Assembly: GCA_022447205.1 (NCBI GenBank)
Contig: JAKVBQ010000005.1
Span: forward strand, 1 to 64,000
Source: Phycisphaerales bacterium
GTDB taxonomy: Bacteria; Planctomycetota; Phycisphaerae; Phycisphaerales; SM1A02
Length of the DNA: 64,000 bases
Direction of reading: 5' to 3'
Below, piece by piece: positions 44,811-59,372 of the stretch; the stretch's first letter is position 1, and each line of letters starts with the position of its first letter. A program made the position numbers and the translations under genes. The notes beneath the pieces were generated by a model, which was given only the letters and a program-made list of their open reading frames with translations, did not search any database and had not been told where the DNA came from.

Positions 44811-47747
44811 TCACTTGCAGAAGCCCCAGGCGCCCAGAAGGGTCGCCAGGTCAGCACCATCGACGAAACCATCGTCGTTCAGGTCCGCGGGACAGTCGGC
44901 GCACTTGCCCCAGGCGCCGAGCACCACGGCCAGGTCGGAACCGCCGACGATGCCGTCACCGTCGAGGTCGCCGAGGCACGGGACTTCGGTCTCGACGAGC
45001 ACGGTGCGCAGCGGGACGGACGCCAGCGGATAGGCCTGCTGACCTTCGGCATCGAGGGTGAAGAGCACGAGGTCGGAAGGCTCGATGCCCTCGAATGCTT
45101 CGGCGCGGAGCTTCAGGAAGACCTGACCGGTCTCGCCGAGTCGTGCGATCAGCTCGCCCTGGGCGTACTCGCCGGGCTCGTTGCCGTTGACACCGATGTT
45201 GCTGCTGACCTGCATGTCGGAGTCGTAGACCACGGCACGCCAGGTGATGTCGCCGATCGGGTCGCCGGTGTTGGTGATGCCGATCTGGATCTCGAAGTCA
45301 CGATCGGGCACGAGCTCGACCCAGGGACCCACGGGGTCCGGCGTGTCGGGGCAGAGATCCCGTCGATCGATGACCGAGCCACCACAGGTCTGGACCGTAC
45401 CGTTGTCGGTGTTGGTCATGACCACCTCGAAGCAACCGAGGTCGTAGAGGTTGTTCATCATCGCGGGTCGCTCGATGGAGATCTGGACCGAGACGCTGCT
45501 GTTGCCGGGCACGGTGACCGGGTTGCTCGGGGAGAGCACGGTGATCGCCGAAGGTCCGTCGATGTTCCCGCAGTTGGGCGGGGAGAGCGCGTTGAAGGTC
45601 AGGTCGAACGTCGAAGGATTGGGCGAGAAGTTGTTCAGGGTGATGTCGGTGACCACCTTCAGTTCATCCTCGCAGAACGGGATGTCCCAGGGGACCTCGC
45701 AGCTGAACTTGCACTTGCCGCACTCATCGGCGTTGTAGAGGGCCGCGAACTCGGAGGTGTCGAGGACACGACTGAAGATCTCGACTTCGTCGATGATGCC
45801 GGTGAAGAATTCCTCGGCGGTTCCCGGTGCGGAGGAGTAGCGCATGCCACCGATCCAGAGATCGGCATCCGGGTTGCCGAGGCTGCCCAGGACGGTCATC
45901 GGAGAGCTGTCGACGTCGTCGAGGCCGTTGACGATGAACCGGACGCTGTAGCTGGAGGTCCGGTCGACGGCGACGCCGACGTGGACGAACTGGTTCATCG
46001 GGAGGACCTGGACACTCTGCCAGACGGCATTGTTGGTTCCATCACTCATGTAGAGGTGAAGGCGACCGTTCTGGACGTAGAAGGAGTAGCCCGGACCGGT
46101 GTACCAGTCACGCTTGTCGACGATCGGGCCCCAGTCGAAGCTGTCCTGGCTGTCGATCGAGATCCAGGCGTCGATGGAGAAGTTGCCCTGGCTTTCGTTG
46201 GGGCTGGCGGCAGGAACGTCGAAGACCGGGTTGTAGGGGACGAGGACGTAGTCCATGTCACCATCGAGCTTGATGCCGTTCTCGACCTTGCCGGGCGCCG
46301 GGGTGGCGTTGTCCATGTGAGTGCCGTCATTGCCGGCGATCGTCTCGGCGGAAGTCGGGTTGACGAGATCGTCCATCGTCCACCAGCCGATCATCTCCGA
46401 GGGAGGTTCGACGCATTCGCAGCCGGTGGGATCGTCGCAGATGTCGCGATCCACGTATTCGATGAGCGTCCAGTTGGGGTATTCCTGCGCGATTTCCTCG
46501 ATGGGGATCGGAATCAGCTCGACCGTGGGATCCTCGGGGGTGTCCGGGATCAACGGGATCTTGAGGCTCTGCTCGTTGCAACCGCTGATGCCGTTCCAGT
46601 CGGTCATGACCAGGTAGTAGTCCTGGTTGGGAACGAGATCGAACGAACGAGTCGAGCCGAAGATCGAGAAACCGTTCGCGGAGAGCGCGAAGTCGGACGC
46701 ACCGTCATCCTCCTGGCCGCCGTACTCCATGCCCCAGAGATAGGTCTGGGAGGGAGTATCGATCGCGACCAGTGCCATGTTGCTGACGGGGTTGGGGTAG
46801 CCGAGTCCACCCACCAGGTGCGCGGTCTTGTCCGCGTTCTGATAGATCTCCTTGGTGCCCCGGAAGCCGTACATGCCCCGGTACCAGTTGAGATTGAAGT
46901 TGTCATCGACGTGCATCAGGTAGGTGCCGCCGCCCTCTCCGGACTGCTTGGAGTAGCCGGTGACCAGGTAGCCGCCCTCGGCGGCCCGGGTCAGTCCACG
47001 ACCGAAGTCGGTGTAGCCAGGGAAGCCGACCATGCGGGAGAGCATGGGATTGCCGTTGGCGTGGACCCTGGCGAGCAGGGTGTCGACATTGCCGATCTGG
47101 TTTCCGAGACGACCTGCGAGGTTGAAGAAGAGCTCGCCGTCGGCCGTGTATCCCTGCTCGATGTAGGCGAACTCACCAATGAGGTTCGGGATGCCGGGCG
47201 CCTCGTAGTTGTTCATCCAGATCACGTTGCCATCGGGCTTGGTTCGGATCAGCATCGGAATGCGACTTCCGTTCTCATCCAGGTTCTGCAATGCGATCAG
47301 GTACCCCTCGGCGTCACCGACCTCGATCAGGTCGAGCGTCTCGCCGAGGTTGTAGCCTGGGTAGATGTGCATCCAGTCGACGGCGCCGGCAAGGTTGACC
47401 TTCACCAGCATGCACTGGACCGAGCTGCCGTTGATGAGATTGCCTGCAACCGCGATGCCTCCATCGGAGGTACCGATCGAGGCCTGCGGGTAGAACCCCT
47501 CGACGGTGAGCATCCAGTTGACGGCACCACTGGCATCGTGGTGGGATACGACGTCGTTGCCGCAGGAAACCATGTCACCACCCGAGAGGGTGGAGATCCT
47601 GGAGGGCAGGGTGTCGTCGACGTAGGTGCCGAAGACCCGCTGGTCCTGCTGGGCGTTGGCGGAGGCCGCCATGAGGCCGGCAGCGATCAATCCGATCGCC
47701 GAGGTGCGGGTACGGGTGATCGAATCTGAGCTGATGGTCATCGTCAT
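44811..47747 (-). CDS. Large secreted protein: propeller-like repeats, LamG, dockerin-like C-terminus
   Basis: A 978-residue exported protein. The ATG at 47747 precedes a signal peptide ending ASANA; ATG 47741 fits the AGGAG spacing slightly better. Residues about 30-440 are beta-propeller-like repeats (ISTLSGGDMVSCGNDVVSHH, GGYLVTGYSKQSGEGGG). Residues about 470-680 form a LamG domain (GWWTMDDL, NFSIDAWISIDSQDSFD, GIIDEVEIFSRVLDTSE). Next comes a Cys-rich region with a beta-sandwich (about 690-900), then a dockerin-like pair (GGSDLAVVLGAWG, GADLATLLGAWG) ending GFCK. Probably glycan-binding at the surface. Confidence 0.85.
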   Translation of the reverse strand: MTMTISSDSITRTRTSAIGLIAAGLMAASANAQQDQRVFGTYVDDTLPSRISTLSGGDMVSCGNDVVSHHDASGAVNWMLTVEGFYPQASIGTSDGGIAVAGNLINGSSVQCMLVKVNLAGAVDWMHIYPGYNLGETLDLIEVGDAEGYLIALQNLDENGSRIPMLIRTKPDGNVIWMNNYEAPGIPNLIGEFAYIEQGYTADGELFFNLAGRLGNQIGNVDTLLARVHANGNPMLSRMVGFPGYTDFGRGLTRAAEGGYLVTGYSKQSGEGGGTYLMHVDDNFNLNWYRGMYGFRGTKEIYQNADKTAHLVGGLGYPNPVSNMALVAIDTPSQTYLWGMEYGGQEDDGASDFALSANGFSIFGSTRSFDLVPNQDYYLVMTDWNGISGCNEQSLKIPLIPDTPEDPTVELIPIPIEEIAQEYPNWTLIEYVDRDICDDPTGCECVEPPSEMIGWWTMDDLVNPTSAETIAGNDGTHMDNATPAPGKVENGIKLDGDMDYVLVPYNPVFDVPAASPNESQGNFSIDAWISIDSQDSFDWGPIVDKRDWYTGPGYSFYVQNGRLHLYMSDGTNNAVWQSVQVLPMNQFVHVGVAVDRTSSYSVRFIVNGLDDVDSSPMTVLGSLGNPDADLWIGGMRYSSAPGTAEEFFTGIIDEVEIFSRVLDTSEFAALYNADECGKCKFSCEVPWDIPFCEDELKVVTDITLNNFSPNPSTFDLTFNALSPPNCGNIDGPSAITVLSPSNPVTVPGNSSVSVQISIERPAMMNNLYDLGCFEVVMTNTDNGTVQTCGGSVIDRRDLCPDTPDPVGPWVELVPDRDFEIQIGITNTGDPIGDITWRAVVYDSDMQVSSNIGVNGNEPGEYAQGELIARLGETGQVFLKLRAEAFEGIEPSDLVLFTLDAEGQQAYPLASVPLRTVLVETEVPCLGDLDGDGIVGGSDLAVVLGAWGKCADCPADLNDDGFVDGADLATLLGAWGFCK

Positions 47748-47953
47748 TGTCTCCTGGTCTTGGGTCATTCTTGAAGGGTGGATGGACCGTCTGGCCTGCG
47801 GCAGGGTGGTGCCGGGGCCGTCGGACCATGCACGGATGGTCCGTCGAGAGGACTCCGCAGGAAGAGGGTCGATCCTATCAGTGCAAGATCCGGAAATTGA
47901 GAAGATTCTCGGCCAGCCGATGCCAATGGCCCGGAGTGGGTGCCAGGAGCAGG

Positions 47954-47991: not shown

Positions 47992-49503
47992 CTAGTTCAA
48001 CCCGACACCGGCCGGAACTGCCGTCGGTTCCGAGAGTCGCATCTCCCAACGAACGGCTCGCAGGACGAGCGCCTCGAGGCCCTCGGTCTTTTCCGGATGA
48101 GGGCTGAAGAGAAGAACACGACCGCTGCCGAACTCACCAGCGACGATCGCGGGGGTGTCGACCATCGTCTCAGGATCGGCGCCATTCTTGCCAACGCCGG
48201 TTCGGTAATAGGAAAGGATGCGTGGTTCCGGGAGATCGCTGTCCTTTGACGGGACCATCAGGGGGCCCTGGGCGAAATGGATGTCACATTCGATTCCCGC
48301 CTCCAGGCCGAGAGTCGAGGCACCGGATCCGGTCGCCTCCATCCGAACGGTCCCCTTCCCCCGACGCCAGTGTTCACGATCGAAGCTGTCGAGCGGAAGC
48401 AGCTTCAACCCCCAGGTGTAGTTGTGCAGCGCGAGATACGCCCCGGCACAGACCCCGATGTAGCCACCACCGGACGAAACGAACGACCGGACACGATCAC
48501 GACCGTCCACGCCGAGCGCGCCGCCCTGCTTGCTGCCGCTTCCCCCGGGGAAGAGAACGACGTCGAACTGGCCGAGCACGCCGTCACGAACATCGGCAGC
48601 ACCGATCCGTTCGACGACGCACTCTTCGAGCACGCGCTCGAAGAGTCTGCCCTGCGAGTCCCCCCCCGCTCCGGGTCCGTCATACAGGGCGACGGCCGGA
48701 CGTGTTTCGGAGGGGCGGACCATCCGTGCAGGGCCATGATCCGACATGCCCAGCTCGGCGAGCAATGCAGCCACCATGCGGCGATGCTGGCGGGCCCGGG
48801 TCGAGAGCGGCTGGTCCGCATAGGTCGTCTCGAGGATGTGTGCCTCGATCCCGAGTTGCTCGATCGCCGCACGAGCCAGACTGCCATTGACCACCGAATC
48901 GATCTCGGAGAACCGACGCATCGGATCGTCGATCTCGCTGTTGATCGCGGCAAGCATGACCTGCTGATGGTCCTGATCCTCGTCGCGAGCGGTCAGGACA
49001 CTCGAACCGACGCTCTTGCTCCCGGCAGCACGGACGCCGTAGCCCTCGTGCAGGTCGAGCAGGACGTCGGGCTCACTGTCGAGGACGAATGTCCAGATGC
49101 GGTCGGCCTGTTCACTCCCGGGTGCGTCGACGGCGTCACCACGGCGCGGGAAGTGACGATTCAGGTCACCGGCATCGCCTTCGAGTCCCGGCAGGCGACG
49201 GGTTCGTTCGGCAAGGGCGGGCGGATTGCATCGGGGCACGACGATGAGACGACCACGAGCGACGGTCCAGGAGGCGATCTGCGCCGCCGCTCGTGCGCCG
49301 GCAGGTTCATTGCCGTGAATCCCTCCGGTGACGAGCACGGTCGGGCCGGGCACGCCGCTGTCATAGGCATGCCATGCCGTCTCGAATGGTGTGCCCTCGG
49401 CAAGGAGTCCGTTGCTGCGTTCCTGCCCGTGCAGCGGCGTGGCGAACACCGCCAGGACCAGGAGCAGTGCGGAAGACATCGATCGTGACAGGGCCTGTCT
49501 CAT
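47992..49503 (-). CDS. Exported M14-type aspartoacylase/desuccinylase fused to a BPL_N amidotransferase-like domain
   Basis: A 503-residue protein with a signal peptide (about 1-26). The first domain is a zinc carboxypeptidase/aspartoacylase fold: GGIHGNEPAGA with His63 and Glu66, DLNRHFPR, and LLDLHEGYG with His152. From about residue 270 a class I GATase-like domain of the biotin-protein-ligase N-terminal (BPL_N) type follows (VALYDGPGAGG, VVLFPGGSGSKQGGALG, GGYIGVCAGAYLAL with the Cys, and ILSYYRTGVG). The start at 49503 carries TAGGGT 7 bases upstream. It may remove acyl or amino-acid groups from wall-derived compounds; the pairing is unusual. Confidence 0.78.
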   Translation of the reverse strand: MRQALSRSMSSALLLVLAVFATPLHGQERSNGLLAEGTPFETAWHAYDSGVPGPTVLVTGGIHGNEPAGARAAAQIASWTVARGRLIVVPRCNPPALAERTRRLPGLEGDAGDLNRHFPRRGDAVDAPGSEQADRIWTFVLDSEPDVLLDLHEGYGVRAAGSKSVGSSVLTARDEDQDHQQVMLAAINSEIDDPMRRFSEIDSVVNGSLARAAIEQLGIEAHILETTYADQPLSTRARQHRRMVAALLAELGMSDHGPARMVRPSETRPAVALYDGPGAGGDSQGRLFERVLEECVVERIGAADVRDGVLGQFDVVLFPGGSGSKQGGALGVDGRDRVRSFVSSGGGYIGVCAGAYLALHNYTWGLKLLPLDSFDREHWRRGKGTVRMEATGSGASTLGLEAGIECDIHFAQGPLMVPSKDSDLPEPRILSYYRTGVGKNGADPETMVDTPAIVAGEFGSGRVLLFSPHPEKTEGLEALVLRAVRWEMRLSEPTAVPAGVGLN

Positions 49504-49516
49504 GCATGACACCCTA
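49504..49516 (-). promoter_or_regulatory. Leaderless-type -10 box of the aspartoacylase/BPL_N gene
   Basis: On the minus strand TAGGGT (49511-49516), GTCATGC, then ATG at 49503. The 162-bp gap to the divergent protease gene holds no other confident element. Confidence 0.45.
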
Positions 49517-49665
49517 GCGAACAAGGGATTGGGTGCGGCGCGCAACTCGGGAACCCGCAATTTCAGTCCATCAAGGCCGGTCGAGAAGCACGGGACTGTG
49601 GAGAAGGCTTCAGGACTTCGGTTGGTGGTACAGTGCCCCTCCATCACTTTCGGAGCTCATACCAG

Positions 49666-51705
49666 ATGAAGATCATCACCACCCTGCTCGTCGCAAGCTG
49701 CCTCCTCGGAACCTCGACCACCGCCTTGCATGCCGCCGAAGGCCTGCAGGATCGCGACATCGACCGTGCCAGGGAAGCGGTGTACCCCGCCCTCGTGAAC
49801 ATCTCGGTGGTCGGCAAGCAGTACCAGAACGGCAAGCTGCGTCGATTCCCTGCAGCAGGCAGCGGCGTCATCGTCTCACCGGAAGGTCATGTCCTGACCA
49901 ACTTCCACGTCGCCGGAGACACGACGAGGATCACCTGCAAGCTCCCGGACGGCCGTGTCTTCCAGGCTGATCCGATCGTCCTCGATCCGCTCACGGATCT
50001 CGCGGTCCTGCAGCTCGAACTGGGTGACGGCGCGGATCGGGAGACGGTCCCCTTCGCCGTACTCGGGGATTCCGACGAACTCGAGATCGGTGACGACGTC
50101 TTCGCAATGGGCAACCCGCAGGCGCTCTCCAGCTCGATGACGAGAGGCATCGTCTCGAACCCGGCACGCGTCTTCACCAGCTTCACCGGAAACGAGATGG
50201 ACGAGGTCGATCTCGGCAGCGGCCAGCGAACCGGTCTCTTCACGAGGTGGATCCAGCATGACGCCCTCATCCTCGGCGGCAACAGCGGCGGACCCCTCGT
50301 CAATCTCGATGGCGAAGTCATCGGCATCAACGACCGGGGCGGCAGCGGCATGAGCTTCGCGATCCCCTCGCGGATCGCCTCGGACGTCCTGGAACAGGCC
50401 GTCGAGAAGGGCTTCGTCGAGCGCAGCTGGATGGGCATCTCGGTCAAGCCGGTCGACAAGATGGACCGCAAGGCCGGCGCACTCGTCACCTGGGTGGTCG
50501 AAGGCAGCCCGGCGGACCAGGCCGGACTCCGCGCCGGCGACATCATCGGCGAGATCGACGGCGAGACCGTGAGCGTGACGACTTTCGAGGAGATCCCCCC
50601 GCTGCTGAAGCGGATGGCCGACATCGAACCGGGCGCGCCCGCACCGATCGACTGGGAACGGGACGGCAACCGGATGTCCGGAACCGTCGTTCCCCAGCCC
50701 CTCGAGCAGTACCTCGGGGACGAGGATGAAGCACGCTCCTGGGGGATCACGGTCCGTGACATCACGACCCAGATGGCCCTCGGACGCCGCTACCCGGATG
50801 CGAATGGCGTGATGGTGACCGGCGTTCGGCCGGGTCGTCCCGCTGAAAAGGCACAACCCCAGATCCAGCGAGGCGACGTCATCGTGTCGATCGACGGCAT
50901 CGGGGTCGACGACATCGACAACTTCATGGACGAGGTGACGGACCTGGATGAAGGCCACGAGAGCCTCGTCATGTTCCGCCGCGGTGACGCGGAGATTCTC
51001 ACCGTGATCGAGACCGCAGCACAACGCGACGTCATCGGTGGCGGCGAACTGCCCCGGGCATGGCTCGGTGCCGAGACCCAGGTCCTCACGAAGTCCGTCG
51101 CCAAGGCGATCGGTCTCGAAAGCACGAAGGGCTTCCGAGTCACCCGCGTCTATCCGGGCACCGAGGCGGAAGCCGCCGGTCTTCGCACCGGCGACGTGAT
51201 CACCGCGATCGAAGGCGGTCGGCTTCGTGCCTCACGACCCCAGGATGCCGCGCAGCTCGCCCGTCGGATCGAGTCCCTTCCCGTCGACACGCCGGCTGAA
51301 TTCACCATCGTTCGCGACGGCGAGGAGACCGCCATGTCGATCATGATGGAGGCGACCCCGTCCTCGGTCAGCGAAACGGAATCCGCGGAGTCGGAACTCC
51401 TCGAGTTCACGGTCCGCGACCCGATCTTCATGGACGCCATCGACAAGCGCTGGGGCGACACCGTCCAGGGCGTGGTCGTGACCAACGTGGTCAGTGGCGG
51501 ATGGGCCTCCCTCGCCGGACTCCAGCAGGGCGATCTGCTCATCTCCATGAACGACCAGCCCATCGAGGGCATCCCTTCATTCGAAGCGGAACTCGCACGA
51601 ATCACCGATGAACGACCGTCCGTCGTGAAGGTCTTCGTGCTGCGTGACCACCGAACCAACTTCCTCTTCATCGAGCCGGACTGGCCCGAAGACGATGCCG
51701 CCTGA
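49666..51705 (+). CDS. HtrA/DegP-type serine protease with four PDZ domains
   Basis: A 679-residue exported trypsin-like protease. The signal peptide ends ALHAAEG (about 24). The triad is visible: His81 in LTNFHVAGD, Asp111 in LDPLTDLAVLQL, Ser207 in LILGGNSGGPLVNLDG. Four PDZ-like domains follow at about 235-310, 370-440, 470-550 and 595-670, each with a carboxylate-loop element (for example GLRAGDIIGEIDG, GLQQGDLLISMND). DegP normally has two, so this is a long member. It degrades or refolds misfolded periplasmic proteins. The ATG at 49666 follows GGAG and the signal peptide. A degenerate relative starts 30 bp after its stop. Confidence 0.92.
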   Translation: MKIITTLLVASCLLGTSTTALHAAEGLQDRDIDRAREAVYPALVNISVVGKQYQNGKLRRFPAAGSGVIVSPEGHVLTNFHVAGDTTRITCKLPDGRVFQADPIVLDPLTDLAVLQLELGDGADRETVPFAVLGDSDELEIGDDVFAMGNPQALSSSMTRGIVSNPARVFTSFTGNEMDEVDLGSGQRTGLFTRWIQHDALILGGNSGGPLVNLDGEVIGINDRGGSGMSFAIPSRIASDVLEQAVEKGFVERSWMGISVKPVDKMDRKAGALVTWVVEGSPADQAGLRAGDIIGEIDGETVSVTTFEEIPPLLKRMADIEPGAPAPIDWERDGNRMSGTVVPQPLEQYLGDEDEARSWGITVRDITTQMALGRRYPDANGVMVTGVRPGRPAEKAQPQIQRGDVIVSIDGIGVDDIDNFMDEVTDLDEGHESLVMFRRGDAEILTVIETAAQRDVIGGGELPRAWLGAETQVLTKSVAKAIGLESTKGFRVTRVYPGTEAEAAGLRTGDVITAIEGGRLRASRPQDAAQLARRIESLPVDTPAEFTIVRDGEETAMSIMMEATPSSVSETESAESELLEFTVRDPIFMDAIDKRWGDTVQGVVVTNVVSGGWASLAGLQQGDLLISMNDQPIEGIPSFEAELARITDERPSVVKVFVLRDHRTNFLFIEPDWPEDDAA

Positions 51706-51735
51706 ACACGAACCGGATCAATACGGAGACAACCA

Positions 51736-52593
51736 GTGAAGAAGACCCTTGCAACAGTTCTCACCACCGTTCTCGCCCTCGCCACCACCACGGGCGCGGC
51801 GACCACGAACGATGACAACGCCTACAAGCAGCTGATCGATGATCACGCCTCCTCGATCGTCACCGTGAAGTTCGTCATGAACGTCTCGATGGGCGGCGGC
51901 GGTGGCGGCATGGACCGCGAGATCCCGGTGGAGATCGACGGCATCGTCGTGAGCGACGACGGACTGATCATGATCCCGGGCGCACCCATGGACATGGCCA
52001 ACCAGATGCGCCGCCAGATGCGTGGCCGTCGAGGCGGTCGTGGCGGCGGTGGCGGCGGCGGCATGCCCGACATGGAGATCGAAGCCTCACCGACCGACAT
52101 CCGCGTGGTGATGGGCGATGACTTCGAGGAATACGACGCGGTGCTCGCGGCAAAGGACTCCACCCTCCAGCTCGCATTCGTGATGCTCGAGGACACCGAG
52201 GACCTCAAGCTCTCCCCGCTCAAGCTCGATGCCGACAGCGAGCCGGGAATCGGCGAGGAACTGCTCGCGCTTGCACGTCTCAACGAGGAGTATGACTACG
52301 CCCCCTACTTCGCGACCGTCCAGATCACCGGTTCGGTCAACCAGCCGCGCAGGATGTGGTGCATCTCGACGCAGCTGTTCTCGCCGGGCCTCCCCGTCTT
52401 CAACCATGCCGGTGCGTTCATCGGCATCATGGGCGACGGAACCAGTGGCGGCGATGACGCCGGCATGGGCGGCATGATGGGTGGCCAGAGCGGATATCCG
52501 TTCCTGATTCCCGTCAAGCAGGTCGCACCGATCGTGAAGCAGGCGCATGAACGCGGCAAGGCGATCGTCACCGGAGAAGGCGCCGGCGCCTGA
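51736..52593 (+). CDS. Secreted degenerate trypsin-like protein (pseudoprotease)
   Basis: A 285-residue exported protein starting at GTG after GGAGACAACCA, with a signal peptide (about 1-22). It follows the core of the upstream HtrA: IDGIVVSDDGLIMIPGAPMD aligns with SGVIVSPEGHVLTNFH but has no His; LAAKDSTLQLAFVML aligns with DPLTDLAVLQL but has no Asp; LFSPGLPVFNHAGAFIGI aligns with the Ser loop, where a Ser stands in altered context (SPG, not SGG). A Met/Gly/Arg-rich insert lies at about 85-112. It is therefore probably inactive and may regulate, or present substrates to, the active protease. It is co-transcribed and ends at a strong terminator. Confidence 0.75.
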   Translation: MKKTLATVLTTVLALATTTGAATTNDDNAYKQLIDDHASSIVTVKFVMNVSMGGGGGGMDREIPVEIDGIVVSDDGLIMIPGAPMDMANQMRRQMRGRRGGRGGGGGGGMPDMEIEASPTDIRVVMGDDFEEYDAVLAAKDSTLQLAFVMLEDTEDLKLSPLKLDADSEPGIGEELLALARLNEEYDYAPYFATVQITGSVNQPRRMWCISTQLFSPGLPVFNHAGAFIGIMGDGTSGGDDAGMGGMMGGQSGYPFLIPVKQVAPIVKQAHERGKAIVTGEGAGA

Positions 52594-52615
52594 ACCGACA
52601 CACCATGATCCTTCC

Positions 52616-52646
52616 ACAGCGCGGGCGTCGACGCCCGCGCTGTTTC
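52616..52646 (+). terminator. Rho-independent terminator after the protease pair
   Basis: A perfect 12-bp stem (ACAGCGCGGGCG / CGCCCGCGCTGT) with a TCGA loop, then TTTCATC, 23 bases after the stop at 52593. Confidence 0.8.
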
Positions 52647-54016: not shown

Positions 54017-55129
54017 TCAGGGACAGACACCCCAGCTGCCGAGCAGGATCGAAAGGTCGGCACCATCGACCTTGCCGTTGTCGTCGAGGTCGGCGACACA
54101 CGAGCTACCGCCGTCATCGTCGTCATCGTCGTCATCGTCGTTCAGAACGATCGAGAAGAACCCGGCGTTCTCGACGACGATCGTGGAGATTCCGACGGGG
54201 AATACCGTCGCCGGCTCGTCACGTGCCTCATCGGGCATGGTGAATCCGGTGCCCGACACGGCACCCACCCACATCAACGAACGCTCGACGTCGGCACCGG
54301 TCACCTCGAGACCGAGCTCGACTCGCGAAGCCGGATCGTTGGTCGCCCCGATCCAGAGCGTCTCGGCATCCCTGCTGGTCGTCGACCAGATCGAGACACC
54401 GTTCAAGCCGCTGATCGAGTCGACCATCAGGTCACCATCATCCGAGGATCCGGAACCGGATCCCGCATGGTCCTGCCAGTCGAGTTCGATTACATCGACA
54501 TCACCGCTTGCAAGCAAGCCGTGTGCTCCGGCCTCCATGACGATCTCATGGTCGATGCCTGCCCAATATGTCTCGGACACACCAGTGACCAGGTTCCGAT
54601 GGCTCACGGAGCCCGAACCGCTGATCGCGAGCGTCAGCATGGAGAGGCCTTCCTCGACCTCGAACCCCATCGTGAACCGATCCGCATCACCACCGCCGAA
54701 GGTGAGCCTCATCCTGCTGGTTGCAGCCGGATCACCGAATTCCACCGAGGAGGCTTCGATCCCGACGTAGCGGATCCTCGCACCGGTATCGACCAGGATG
54801 CTGCCTTGCATGCCCATGTCACAGTGCGGCACGCAGAAGTATGGAATGGTCCCGGATGCATCAGACGGCACCTCCCACTCGAAGACCGGGGTGTCCTCAT
54901 CCAGGGGGCTGTCGAACAGACCGTCCGCCTTGCAATCGTCGCCAGAGGTCACGGTGTGAACACCGGTCACCCAGGTCCAGCGGATCACGTCACCAGGTCG
55001 GGCCACGACGGTCTCGGGTTCGAACGTCAGCATCTGCACCTCGACGTCGATCGTGTCGGCCTGGAGAGCCGATCCGAGTCCGGAGCAAGCAAGGAGTGCG
55101 AGGAGCAACGAATTCATTTGAGTGCGCAT
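54017..55129 (-). CDS. Secreted cupredoxin with dockerin-like C-terminus
   Basis: A 370-residue exported protein with a signal peptide (about 1-24). Residues about 26-118 are a plastocyanin-like cupredoxin: His58 in TGVHTVTSG and Cys99-x2-His102-x4-Met107 in FCVPHCDMGM give a complete type 1 copper site. A beta-rich domain (about 120-335) follows, then nine consecutive Asp residues and a single dockerin-like repeat (GADLSILLGSWGVCP). AGGAGAGG precedes the ATG at 55129. It could carry electrons at the cell surface. Attaching a copper protein by a dockerin-like end is unusual. Confidence 0.83.
   Translation of the reverse strand: MRTQMNSLLLALLACSGLGSALQADTIDVEVQMLTFEPETVVARPGDVIRWTWVTGVHTVTSGDDCKADGLFDSPLDEDTPVFEWEVPSDASGTIPYFCVPHCDMGMQGSILVDTGARIRYVGIEASSVEFGDPAATSRMRLTFGGGDADRFTMGFEVEEGLSMLTLAISGSGSVSHRNLVTGVSETYWAGIDHEIVMEAGAHGLLASGDVDVIELDWQDHAGSGSGSSDDGDLMVDSISGLNGVSIWSTTSRDAETLWIGATNDPASRVELGLEVTGADVERSLMWVGAVSGTGFTMPDEARDEPATVFPVGISTIVVENAGFFSIVLNDDDDDDDDDGGSSCVADLDDNGKVDGADLSILLGSWGVCP
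54113..54139 (-). repeat. Short tandem repeat, 3 x 9 bp, encoding poly-Asp
   Basis: Three copies of GTCATCGTC (plus strand) encode nine aspartates between the beta-rich domain and the dockerin-like repeat. Slippage here would change the linker length in steps of three residues and keep the frame. Confidence 0.8.
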
Positions 55130-57533: not shown

Positions 57534-59372
57534 TCAGTCCCAGTTGCCAAGGATGATCGTGAGGTCCTCTCCATCGACAAGCCCGTCGGCGTTGAGGTCC
57601 GCAATCTCGTTGTCGGTACCCCATTCACCAAGCAGGATCGAGAGGTCGGCGCCATCGACCTGTCCGTCACCGTTGAGGTCACCGACCTGGCTGATCGTGA
57701 AGGAGGAGATCTCGGTCAGCCAGCCATCCGGCGTGTAGACCTCGCCGACCACCCAGAATCGATTGTCGTTGACGGGATCGACCGCGGCATCGAAGTAATC
57801 GCCCCATCGATAGGAGCTGCCGCCGGTCGGGACCGCGTTCGAGGAGGCGAGCTGTTCCGCGGCACCGAGGGTCCCCGGTGGATCGGAGGGAATGCGCCCC
57901 GCGACGAAGAGGTTCGGGAAGTCGGTTTCGGAACTCATCGTGTAGACCACCGCGGCATGCCCGGCACCATTGACCGCGATCGCGGGGAAACAGGTGTGGG
58001 CGATCGCGGTGGGACGGATCTCCCCGGACTGGACGAGGAACGGCGAACCACCGCCATTGTCCGGCCACTCATCGAGATCGATCTCGTACCAGCGCGCGAT
58101 GGTGTTCGAGATGTCCGGTGTCCGGACGCTGTGACCGGTCCAGAGGTTTCCGTTCCGGATCATCACGTTCATGAGCCTGCCGTCGAGCGAGTTGAGCGGG
58201 ACGCCCCCGGGGGTCGGCGGTCGGTCATCCGGGTAGGCGTACTCGGGAATGTCGACCGACACGAGCTCGGAGGAGGGGTCACCCAGCGGATCATCCACGG
58301 TAACCAGACGAAGCGAGGTGCTGTCACCGGTTCTCGCGAGCACCATCGGCTGTTCGCCGGTGGGCACCTGCGCGACCTGGTGGGAGCCGCCGGAAAGCAA
58401 CAGGTCGACGAAGACCACGTCCTCACCATTCATCGCACCTTCGGGATCGAAGCTCCTGAGCAGCGTGCCCCCGAATCCGGAACCCGGGCCGGACTCACGG
58501 AAGAGGTTCGCCGTCACGTACCAGCCGGTGGCATCGAAACCGAGTCCGGGGTAGTCAACCCAGTAGGTCGTGTCGTCGATCTCGGGAAGTGCCCAGGTGC
58601 GGTACTTGTACCAGATGCCGTCGGGATCATCGTCGTCGCTCACCGCGATGGTGATCCACGATTCCCCGCTGTAGTGCTCGAGAGCGAGCACCACGTAGCG
58701 CTCTCGGATCGTGTCGTAGAAGCACTTCGGGTCGAAGGTGAAGTCGCCCGCACCGAGTTCCTCGAAGAACCCGGGCTCACCGGTCGAATCGAGCGTCTGC
58801 TGGAAGAGGGGCGTGCCGTCCTTGTCGTACCAGGCGATCTCCATGTTCACGGTCTCAAGGACGTGATTCGGTCCGACCGCGATCGCGGGGTCCGGGGGCG
58901 TCCACGGAGACTGGCTGATCGCCGGGAAGAACATCCCGGTCCCCTTCTCGACACGAGGTCGGTCGGTCATGCCACCGGACCGCAGGTCGTTCGGCTTCCC
59001 GGCATGCAGCGTCTTGTCGCGGCCATGCTTCGGAAGGATCTCGCCGGGCCGCTTGGTCTCGCCGCGCCAGGGTTGGCGCTGGATGACCTGGGGATCGAAC
59101 GACCGGGTGTCGATGATCGTCGGACTCGCGCTGCCACGCGCACTGCCTCCGATGCCGGACATCGGGACGGGAGGCGGAAGATCCTCGGGTGCGACCCCGG
59201 ACGGGCCGACGAAGCCGGCGGCGAAGGGATGCACGGGGATGACATCCACGCCCGATGCATGATCCCGGGCCGGATCCGGATTCGGCGCACAGGCAGGAAG
59301 CAGGAGGAGGAGTGCCGTCGCGCAGGACAGTGCCGAACACGTTGGATTTACGTTCATGGTGTTGGTGGTCAT
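57534..59372 (-). CDS. Predicted lipoprotein with dockerin-like C-terminus
   Basis: A 612-residue exported protein. Its N-terminus (ALLLLLPAC) has a lipobox-like Cys28, so it may be lipid-anchored. The middle (about 140-550) is a beta-propeller-like region of the sialidase type (WTPPDPAIAVGPNHVLETVN, CFYDTIRERYVVLALEH, SWITIAVSDDDDPDGIWYKY). The end has a dockerin-like pair (GADLSILLGEWG, GEDLTIILGNWD) without the terminal Cys of most others. A lipidated dockerin protein could be an anchor for the surface complex; that is inference. The start at 59372 carries TAGAAT 6 bases upstream. Confidence 0.78.
   Translation of the reverse strand: MTTNTMNVNPTCSALSCATALLLLLPACAPNPDPARDHASGVDVIPVHPFAAGFVGPSGVAPEDLPPPVPMSGIGGSARGSASPTIIDTRSFDPQVIQRQPWRGETKRPGEILPKHGRDKTLHAGKPNDLRSGGMTDRPRVEKGTGMFFPAISQSPWTPPDPAIAVGPNHVLETVNMEIAWYDKDGTPLFQQTLDSTGEPGFFEELGAGDFTFDPKCFYDTIRERYVVLALEHYSGESWITIAVSDDDDPDGIWYKYRTWALPEIDDTTYWVDYPGLGFDATGWYVTANLFRESGPGSGFGGTLLRSFDPEGAMNGEDVVFVDLLLSGGSHQVAQVPTGEQPMVLARTGDSTSLRLVTVDDPLGDPSSELVSVDIPEYAYPDDRPPTPGGVPLNSLDGRLMNVMIRNGNLWTGHSVRTPDISNTIARWYEIDLDEWPDNGGGSPFLVQSGEIRPTAIAHTCFPAIAVNGAGHAAVVYTMSSETDFPNLFVAGRIPSDPPGTLGAAEQLASSNAVPTGGSSYRWGDYFDAAVDPVNDNRFWVVGEVYTPDGWLTEISSFTISQVGDLNGDGQVDGADLSILLGEWGTDNEIADLNADGLVDGEDLTIILGNWD

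Follow-up and report, generated by a model that had tools for sequence, protein, structure and literature searches.

The window, a 64,000-nucleotide stretch of DNA from a Phycisphaerales bacterium (part of contig C45; the genome is 3.25 Mb in 86 contigs), carries an active HtrA-type serine protease gene followed on the same strand by a gene for an HtrA homologue that has lost its catalytic triad. Our proposal is that the gene pair encodes a periplasmic HtrA with two components: the first protein would do the cutting, and the second, apparently a duplicated HtrA whose triad has decayed, would be retained as a regulator or non-catalytic subunit of a heteromeric protease, a reading to which we assign a probability of about 0.6. 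HtrA proteases are usually studied as homo-oligomers, and we found no report of an active/dead HtrA pair in Planctomycetota in the open-access full-text literature. Sequence comparison demonstrates the pairing of the genes, the catalytic loss, the selection on the dead copy and a transfer of domains between the two; physical association of the two proteins is what we infer.

An active protease gene and its dead neighbour

The HtrA gene (49666..51705, forward strand, ATG start) encodes 679 residues with a Sec-type N-terminus, a trypsin-like protease domain (residues 65-221, 49858..50328; Pfam Trypsin_2, 2.1e-29) and four stretches matched by Pfam PDZ models. This agrees with the first-pass annotation, which had described four PDZ domains and an intact triad: alignment with relatives places the catalytic residues at His81 (49906..49908), Asp111 (49996..49998) and, in a GNSGGP motif, Ser207 (50284..50286), each of them invariant in 10 of 10 aligned relatives. 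PDZ1 (residues ~250-345, 50413..50700) is orthologous to PDZ1 of the two-PDZ HtrAs discussed below; PDZ2 (residues ~355-452, 50728..51021), assigned by Pfam and by the PDZ tree, is followed by PDZ3 (residues ~462-575, 51049..51390) and PDZ4 (residues ~578-675, 51397..51690). At 376.4 bits on TIGR02037 (degP_htrA_DO), below the curated cut-off of 416.2, the protein is an HtrA relative outside the curated Do subfamily. The other trypsin-like genes of this genome have no partner within ~1.5 kb.

The partner gene (51736..52593, forward strand) starts with a GTG at 51736, 30 nt past the HtrA stop codon, the spacing originally reported, and behind a GGAG (51725..51728) that, read from the sequence, is its likely ribosome-binding site. 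Its product has 285 residues, a Sec-type N-terminus and no PDZ domain, and profile comparison together with Pfam points to a trypsin-fold HtrA homologue. The only Pfam domain found in the window's partner is Trypsin_2, at 20.8 bits under a gathering score of 27.6. The suggestion that this protein keeps the fold pattern is borne out at the level of the family: 116 partner rows compared as a profile with 109 HtrA protease domains gave a probability of 99.6 and an E of 2.4e-23 over 192 columns, and a smaller comparison, of 9 close partners with 10 HtrAs, gave a probability of 98.0 and an E of 1.9e-13. PDB matches of the partner profiles were nearly all DegP/HtrA chains (best 1.3e-8 and 1.5e-11 for two profiles). 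When each protein was run separately against Pfam, Trypsin_2 (E<=0.01) was found in 15 of 18 partners with PDZ domains and in 68 of 77 without, the latter set being the window's protein plus 76 complete frames shorter than 420 aa and scoring above 100 bits, out of 101 rows without PDZ. AlphaFold2, run on the window's partner with a two-sequence alignment only (itself plus L013), gave a pLDDT of 32.

The catalytic loss goes further than first thought. His and Asp had been recorded as lost; this stands, and in the profile alignment Ser is gone as well, with Ala83 (51982..51984) in the column of the catalytic His, Gln145 (52168..52170) in that of the Asp and Pro217 (52384..52386) in that of the Ser. 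Of the 116 partner rows, 2 have the His, 44 the Asp and 3 the Ser, so that partners often retain the Asp while His and Ser are lost; none of the rows combines two triad residues, and a GNSGGP-like or TNxHV-like motif is absent from all of them. Among the 109 active HtrA rows, by comparison, each of the triad residues is found in 108, and all three wherever the sequence is covered (the incomplete rows are L147, whose frame is cut at a contig end, and L198, whose domain lies in two pieces). Judged by these alignments, the second protein is HtrA-derived and catalytically dead, as are its relatives.

The Met/Gly/Arg-rich insert that had been noticed in the second protein is real by composition: it spans residues ~86-118 (51991..52089), just after the lost His, and a second, Gly/Met-rich insert spans residues ~233-254 (52432..52497), after the lost Ser. 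Because they follow the lost His and lost Ser columns, the two inserts probably flank the former catalytic cleft of the partner, which we would expect them to face. Read by eye, both N-termini resemble Sec signals, as had been claimed, and a rough hydrophobicity count gives a signal-like N-terminus to 95 of the 101 PDZ-free partners and to 64 of the 84 four-PDZ HtrAs; both proteins are presumably exported to the periplasm. Downstream of the operon lies a strong hairpin (52616..52643; folding energy -33.6 kcal/mol, z -5.1), the element first called a strong terminator. The hairpin holds up; the terminator call is less secure, with only three U after the stem, rather than a U tract, and no call by a terminator scan. 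We also considered the hairpin as a repeat element and rejected this, as it is present in a single copy within the 64-kb window.

Pairing and selection across Planctomycetota

The pair is kept across all three of our Planctomycetota samples, in each of which the counts are lower bounds. In an order-level sample (301 genomes), both genes occur in 47, the HtrA occurs with no detected partner in 1 (G345), a partner occurs but no HtrA in 1 (G315), and 252 lack both (Fisher p 8e-53, a statistic that ignores relatedness). This count used partner matches down to ~4e-26; weaker matches (~1e-6 to 1e-11), mostly in longer frames, were taken as ordinary HtrA-like proteins and excluded. Among 181 genomes of the family sample, a single-sequence search found the partner in at least 11, one of these matches being a short weak stretch, and the HtrA was found at E<=1e-60 in at least 11; at least 10 genomes have both genes, adjacent and on the same strand, with one partner split over two contig ends. 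The phylum sample (294 genomes) contains 45 four-PDZ HtrA matches, and a partner adjoins 43 of them; of the two exceptions, one is truncated at a contig end, and next to the second (G597:C146) none was found. One genome-contig scan found a single locus, in the sister genome G068.

The first-pass annotation would have taken separation of the genes in relatives as evidence against a partnership. Within the order sample the genes are adjacent in 35 of the 47 genomes that have both, are at most 2.6 kb apart, on one strand, in 2 (L085, L088) and are unlinked in 10. Both genes are nevertheless retained in those 10 genomes, so that the separation, although it occurs, does not refute the partnership. 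Linked and unlinked members coexist within several genera, and the unlinked partners mostly cluster with linked ones or, by genus, together, so that the two genes came apart on more than one occasion without either being lost. There is no conserved third gene, the largest neighbour cluster spanning 5 fetched loci. Extra solo copies of the partner (L130, L139, L140, L144, L155, L156, L161) and tandem copies (L084, L126, L138, L153) mean that in some genomes partners outnumber four-PDZ HtrAs, which argues against a strict 1:1 unit.

The partner is under purifying selection of much the same strength as that on the enzyme. For five sister pairs with usable dS, dN/dS is ~0.10-0.21 for the partner vs ~0.10-0.16 for the HtrA (in one example, dN/dS 0.039/0.40 vs 0.050/0.47). 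Two deeper comparisons, G146/G147 and G146/G000, show faster divergence of the partner than of the HtrA, and the mean column identity of partners is 20% (77 rows).

Two layouts of four PDZ domains

The pairs come in two architectures: an HtrA with four PDZ domains beside a partner with none (4+0, the type found in the window), and an HtrA with two beside a partner that itself carries two (2+2). Of 88 linked pairs, 68 are 4+0, 18 are 2+2 and 2 look 2+0; one of the latter (L177) is truncated at a contig end, and in the other (L189) the PDZ pair lies in the following frame. The total is therefore four in 86 of 88 linked pairs, and in all of the readable ones.

A tree of 188 PDZ domains, built with 26 randomly chosen four-PDZ HtrAs of 83 and no outgroup PDZ domains, groups HtrA PDZ3 with the first PDZ of the partner (42 of 44, support 0.989) and HtrA PDZ4 with the partner's second (42 of 44, support 0.763). 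PDZ2 of both HtrA types forms one group (50 of 50, support 0.95), and PDZ1 plus PDZ3 are split from PDZ2 plus PDZ4 with support 1.0. BLAST comparisons give the same picture: among the 18 loci with both rows, PDZ1-2 of the window's HtrA score higher on the two-PDZ HtrA in all 18, and PDZ3-4 match the partner better in 16, the exceptions being L182 and L193. The change of architecture also coincides in the trees of the two proteins. The HtrA-domain tree divides four-PDZ from two-PDZ proteins cleanly, with support 0.80 (the sole stranger, L202, is truncated at a contig end), and the partner tree separates by the same layouts with support 0.985, again apart from the cut L177 and the frame-broken L189. 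L191 was excluded from the four-PDZ set in the PDZ, HtrA and partner trees.

This last locus, a frame of 1201 aa with HtrA and partner together, was considered as a natural fusion and rejected; it has a frame change at the HtrA end and then an internal signal peptide. It belongs to the 28 two-PDZ HtrA matches of the phylum sample, 16 of which have a partner by the close-partner profile and 4 of which end at a contig edge. For the remaining 8, read singly, the downstream sequence ends in a PDZ3/PDZ4-like pair, in 7 cases in a separate gene and in 1 (L191) in the same frame through the frame change; in some of those 7 separate genes the pseudoprotease domain is too diverged for the close-partner profile.

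These trees trace PDZ3 and PDZ4 of the HtrA in the window back to the first and second PDZ of the partner, respectively. The simplest history is that the module moved once between the two genes, the total staying at four, and we take the direction to be from partner to HtrA because of the relation of PDZ1 to PDZ3 and of PDZ2 to PDZ4. A whole-gene duplication would have given the 2+2 layout, catalysis would then have been lost in the second copy, and the PDZ pair would later have moved onto the active one. The ancestral complex would accordingly have held two PDZ domains per subunit, and in the window's lineage the dead subunit's pair would have shifted to place all four on one chain. That the pair can sit on either chain with the total unchanged suggests that the two proteins come together in a single complex. 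We give even odds to the broadest form of this proposal, a phylum-wide heteromeric HtrA that needs its dead duplicate and whose four PDZ domains per pair were re-partitioned once, from 2+2 to 4+0.

Function of the pair and comparison with known systems

The idea that the second gene encodes a pseudoprotease partner of the active HtrA, raised at the outset, is strongly supported by the homology, the triad loss, the purifying selection, the co-occurrence when unlinked and the PDZ exchange, taken together; the roles of regulator, decoy and adaptor, also raised then, are not separable by sequence. In HtrA proteins the protease domains assemble into trimers, and the active site is switched by PDZ ligands by way of loops that extend to the neighbouring subunit. 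In its simplest form the complex would be a mixed oligomer with the protease domains packed against each other, a reading favoured because the dead copy has the same fold by profile comparison, is presumably secreted with the HtrA and shares its PDZ modules. The dead subunit would then sit beside the active site and tune activation or substrate handling, and its effect could be activating or inhibiting.

It is also conceivable, if unlikely, that the dead protein acts apart from HtrA, as a periplasmic chaperone, a substrate decoy or a scaffold, the operon reflecting a need for both proteins under the same stress. Triad-less HtrA folds can become scaffolds, as PflC did (PMC12222027), and both the solo partner copies and the 10 of 47 genomes with unlinked genes would fit such a role. 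The near-perfect co-occurrence speaks against it, however, and a PDZ move with the total held at four is most easily understood within one complex. We consider it quite improbable that the second protein binds a metal ion (perhaps copper, through the Met-rich loops) which it would sense or deliver, on the model of the metal site of MamO, a dead HtrA that binds transition metals (PMC4794232). Although Met makes up 9% and 6% of the two inserts vs 3% of the core in partners without PDZ, the inserts of partners with PDZ show no enrichment (1-2%), the loops vary greatly between partners in length and sequence, and the invariant columns hold no Met, His or Cys site besides the start Met. That the gene is a decaying, functionless duplicate is scarcely credible: all catalytic residues are gone and deep divergence is high, but dN/dS resembles that of the enzyme and the gene is retained across the phylum.

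We thus return to the non-catalytic subunit or regulator as the preferred role. Phylum-wide pairing and traded PDZ domains suggest that the dead copy does work within the protease and is not a relic. A dead HtrA beside an active one, with a binding module shuttled between them, offers a directly testable system for the regulation of proteases by pseudoproteases, and the 2+2 and 4+0 pairs provide two natural layouts of the same parts to compare; if our reading is correct, they amount to a natural domain swap between protease and pseudoprotease.

The first gene of the pair has the protease domain, triad and PDZ domains in common with the DegP/DegQ/HtrA (Do) family. Members of that family usually carry one or two PDZ domains, whereas the window's protein has four, falls below the TIGR02037 cut-off and is followed by a dead partner. 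An expansion of PDZ domains in planctomycetes is reported in a survey of PDZ proteins, whose accessible text does not describe a dead partner (PMC6411480). For two different HtrA chains in one complex, the available part of a review names one hetero-oligomeric case (PMC4877387), Arabidopsis Deg5/Deg8, in which two Deg/HtrA chains form one 1:1 hetero-oligomer. This resembles the arrangement that we propose for the window's pair; unlike that pair, Deg5 and Deg8 are both described there as proteases, and that part mentions neither a dead partner nor a PDZ exchange.

PflC of Campylobacter jejuni, a flagellar motor scaffold that forms a lattice with itself, resembles the 2+2 partner in having a protease-PDZ-PDZ HtrA fold without a catalytic triad, and differs from it in that the available text of its description does not place it beside an active HtrA gene as a partner (PMC12222027). 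The closest precedent is MamE/MamO, likewise an active and a dead HtrA encoded in one gene region. MamO is needed for MamE-dependent proteolysis independently of its own triad, and in the accessible text of that study a physical interaction between the two was not detected by its authors (PMC4794232). MamO also carries, at its C-terminus, a TauE transporter domain, has a di-histidine motif that binds metal and functions in the formation of magnetite, and the MamE/MamO pair is described as having independent origins in three magnetotactic groups (PMC4794232). The NCBIfam model of MamO has no match to the window's partner at E<=0.1, and its best place in the window's genome scores 93.1 bits against a cut-off of 800. 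As far as the available text on MamE/MamO allows the comparison, the window's pair is set apart by being phylum-wide and by the PDZ module that has moved between its two genes.

Partner copies and long second genes

Tandem copies of the partner, the pseudoprotease homologue of HtrA, lie downstream of a single four-PDZ HtrA at two loci: four at L126 (3252-8998, plus strand), and three plus a cut one at L138 (1-5511, minus strand). Some genomes also hold solo copies elsewhere. At L198, L220, L221 and L201, a two-PDZ HtrA is followed by a second gene of about 750-830 codons, whose product ends in a pair of PDZ domains resembling PDZ3-PDZ4 of the four-PDZ HtrA and has an N-terminal part with barely or no recognisable trypsin-like character; these second genes are perhaps partners that decayed further or were replaced.

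A chain with two trypsin-like domains

The window's own genome also encodes a 759-residue frame (L215:514-2790, plus strand; contig C23, 148822-149799 and flanks) with two trypsin-like domains. The first is intact, with GHV and GDSGGP present, and the degenerate second, downstream of it and split by a PDZ domain, has lost its His and reads EECGGP where GNSGGP is expected. One chain carries both an active and a dead-looking protease domain.

Other proteins of the window

Three secreted-looking proteins, all on the minus strand, share similar C-terminal tails (GDLDGDG..DGADL..LLG.WG): 44811-47768, 54017-55129, which has a plastocyanin-like copper domain, and 57534-59372, the only one in which Pfam calls Dockerin_1. 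The divergent neighbour of the HtrA gene (47992-49647, minus strand; 551 residues) fuses a succinylglutamate desuccinylase/aspartoacylase-type domain to a BPL_N/ThuA-like domain.
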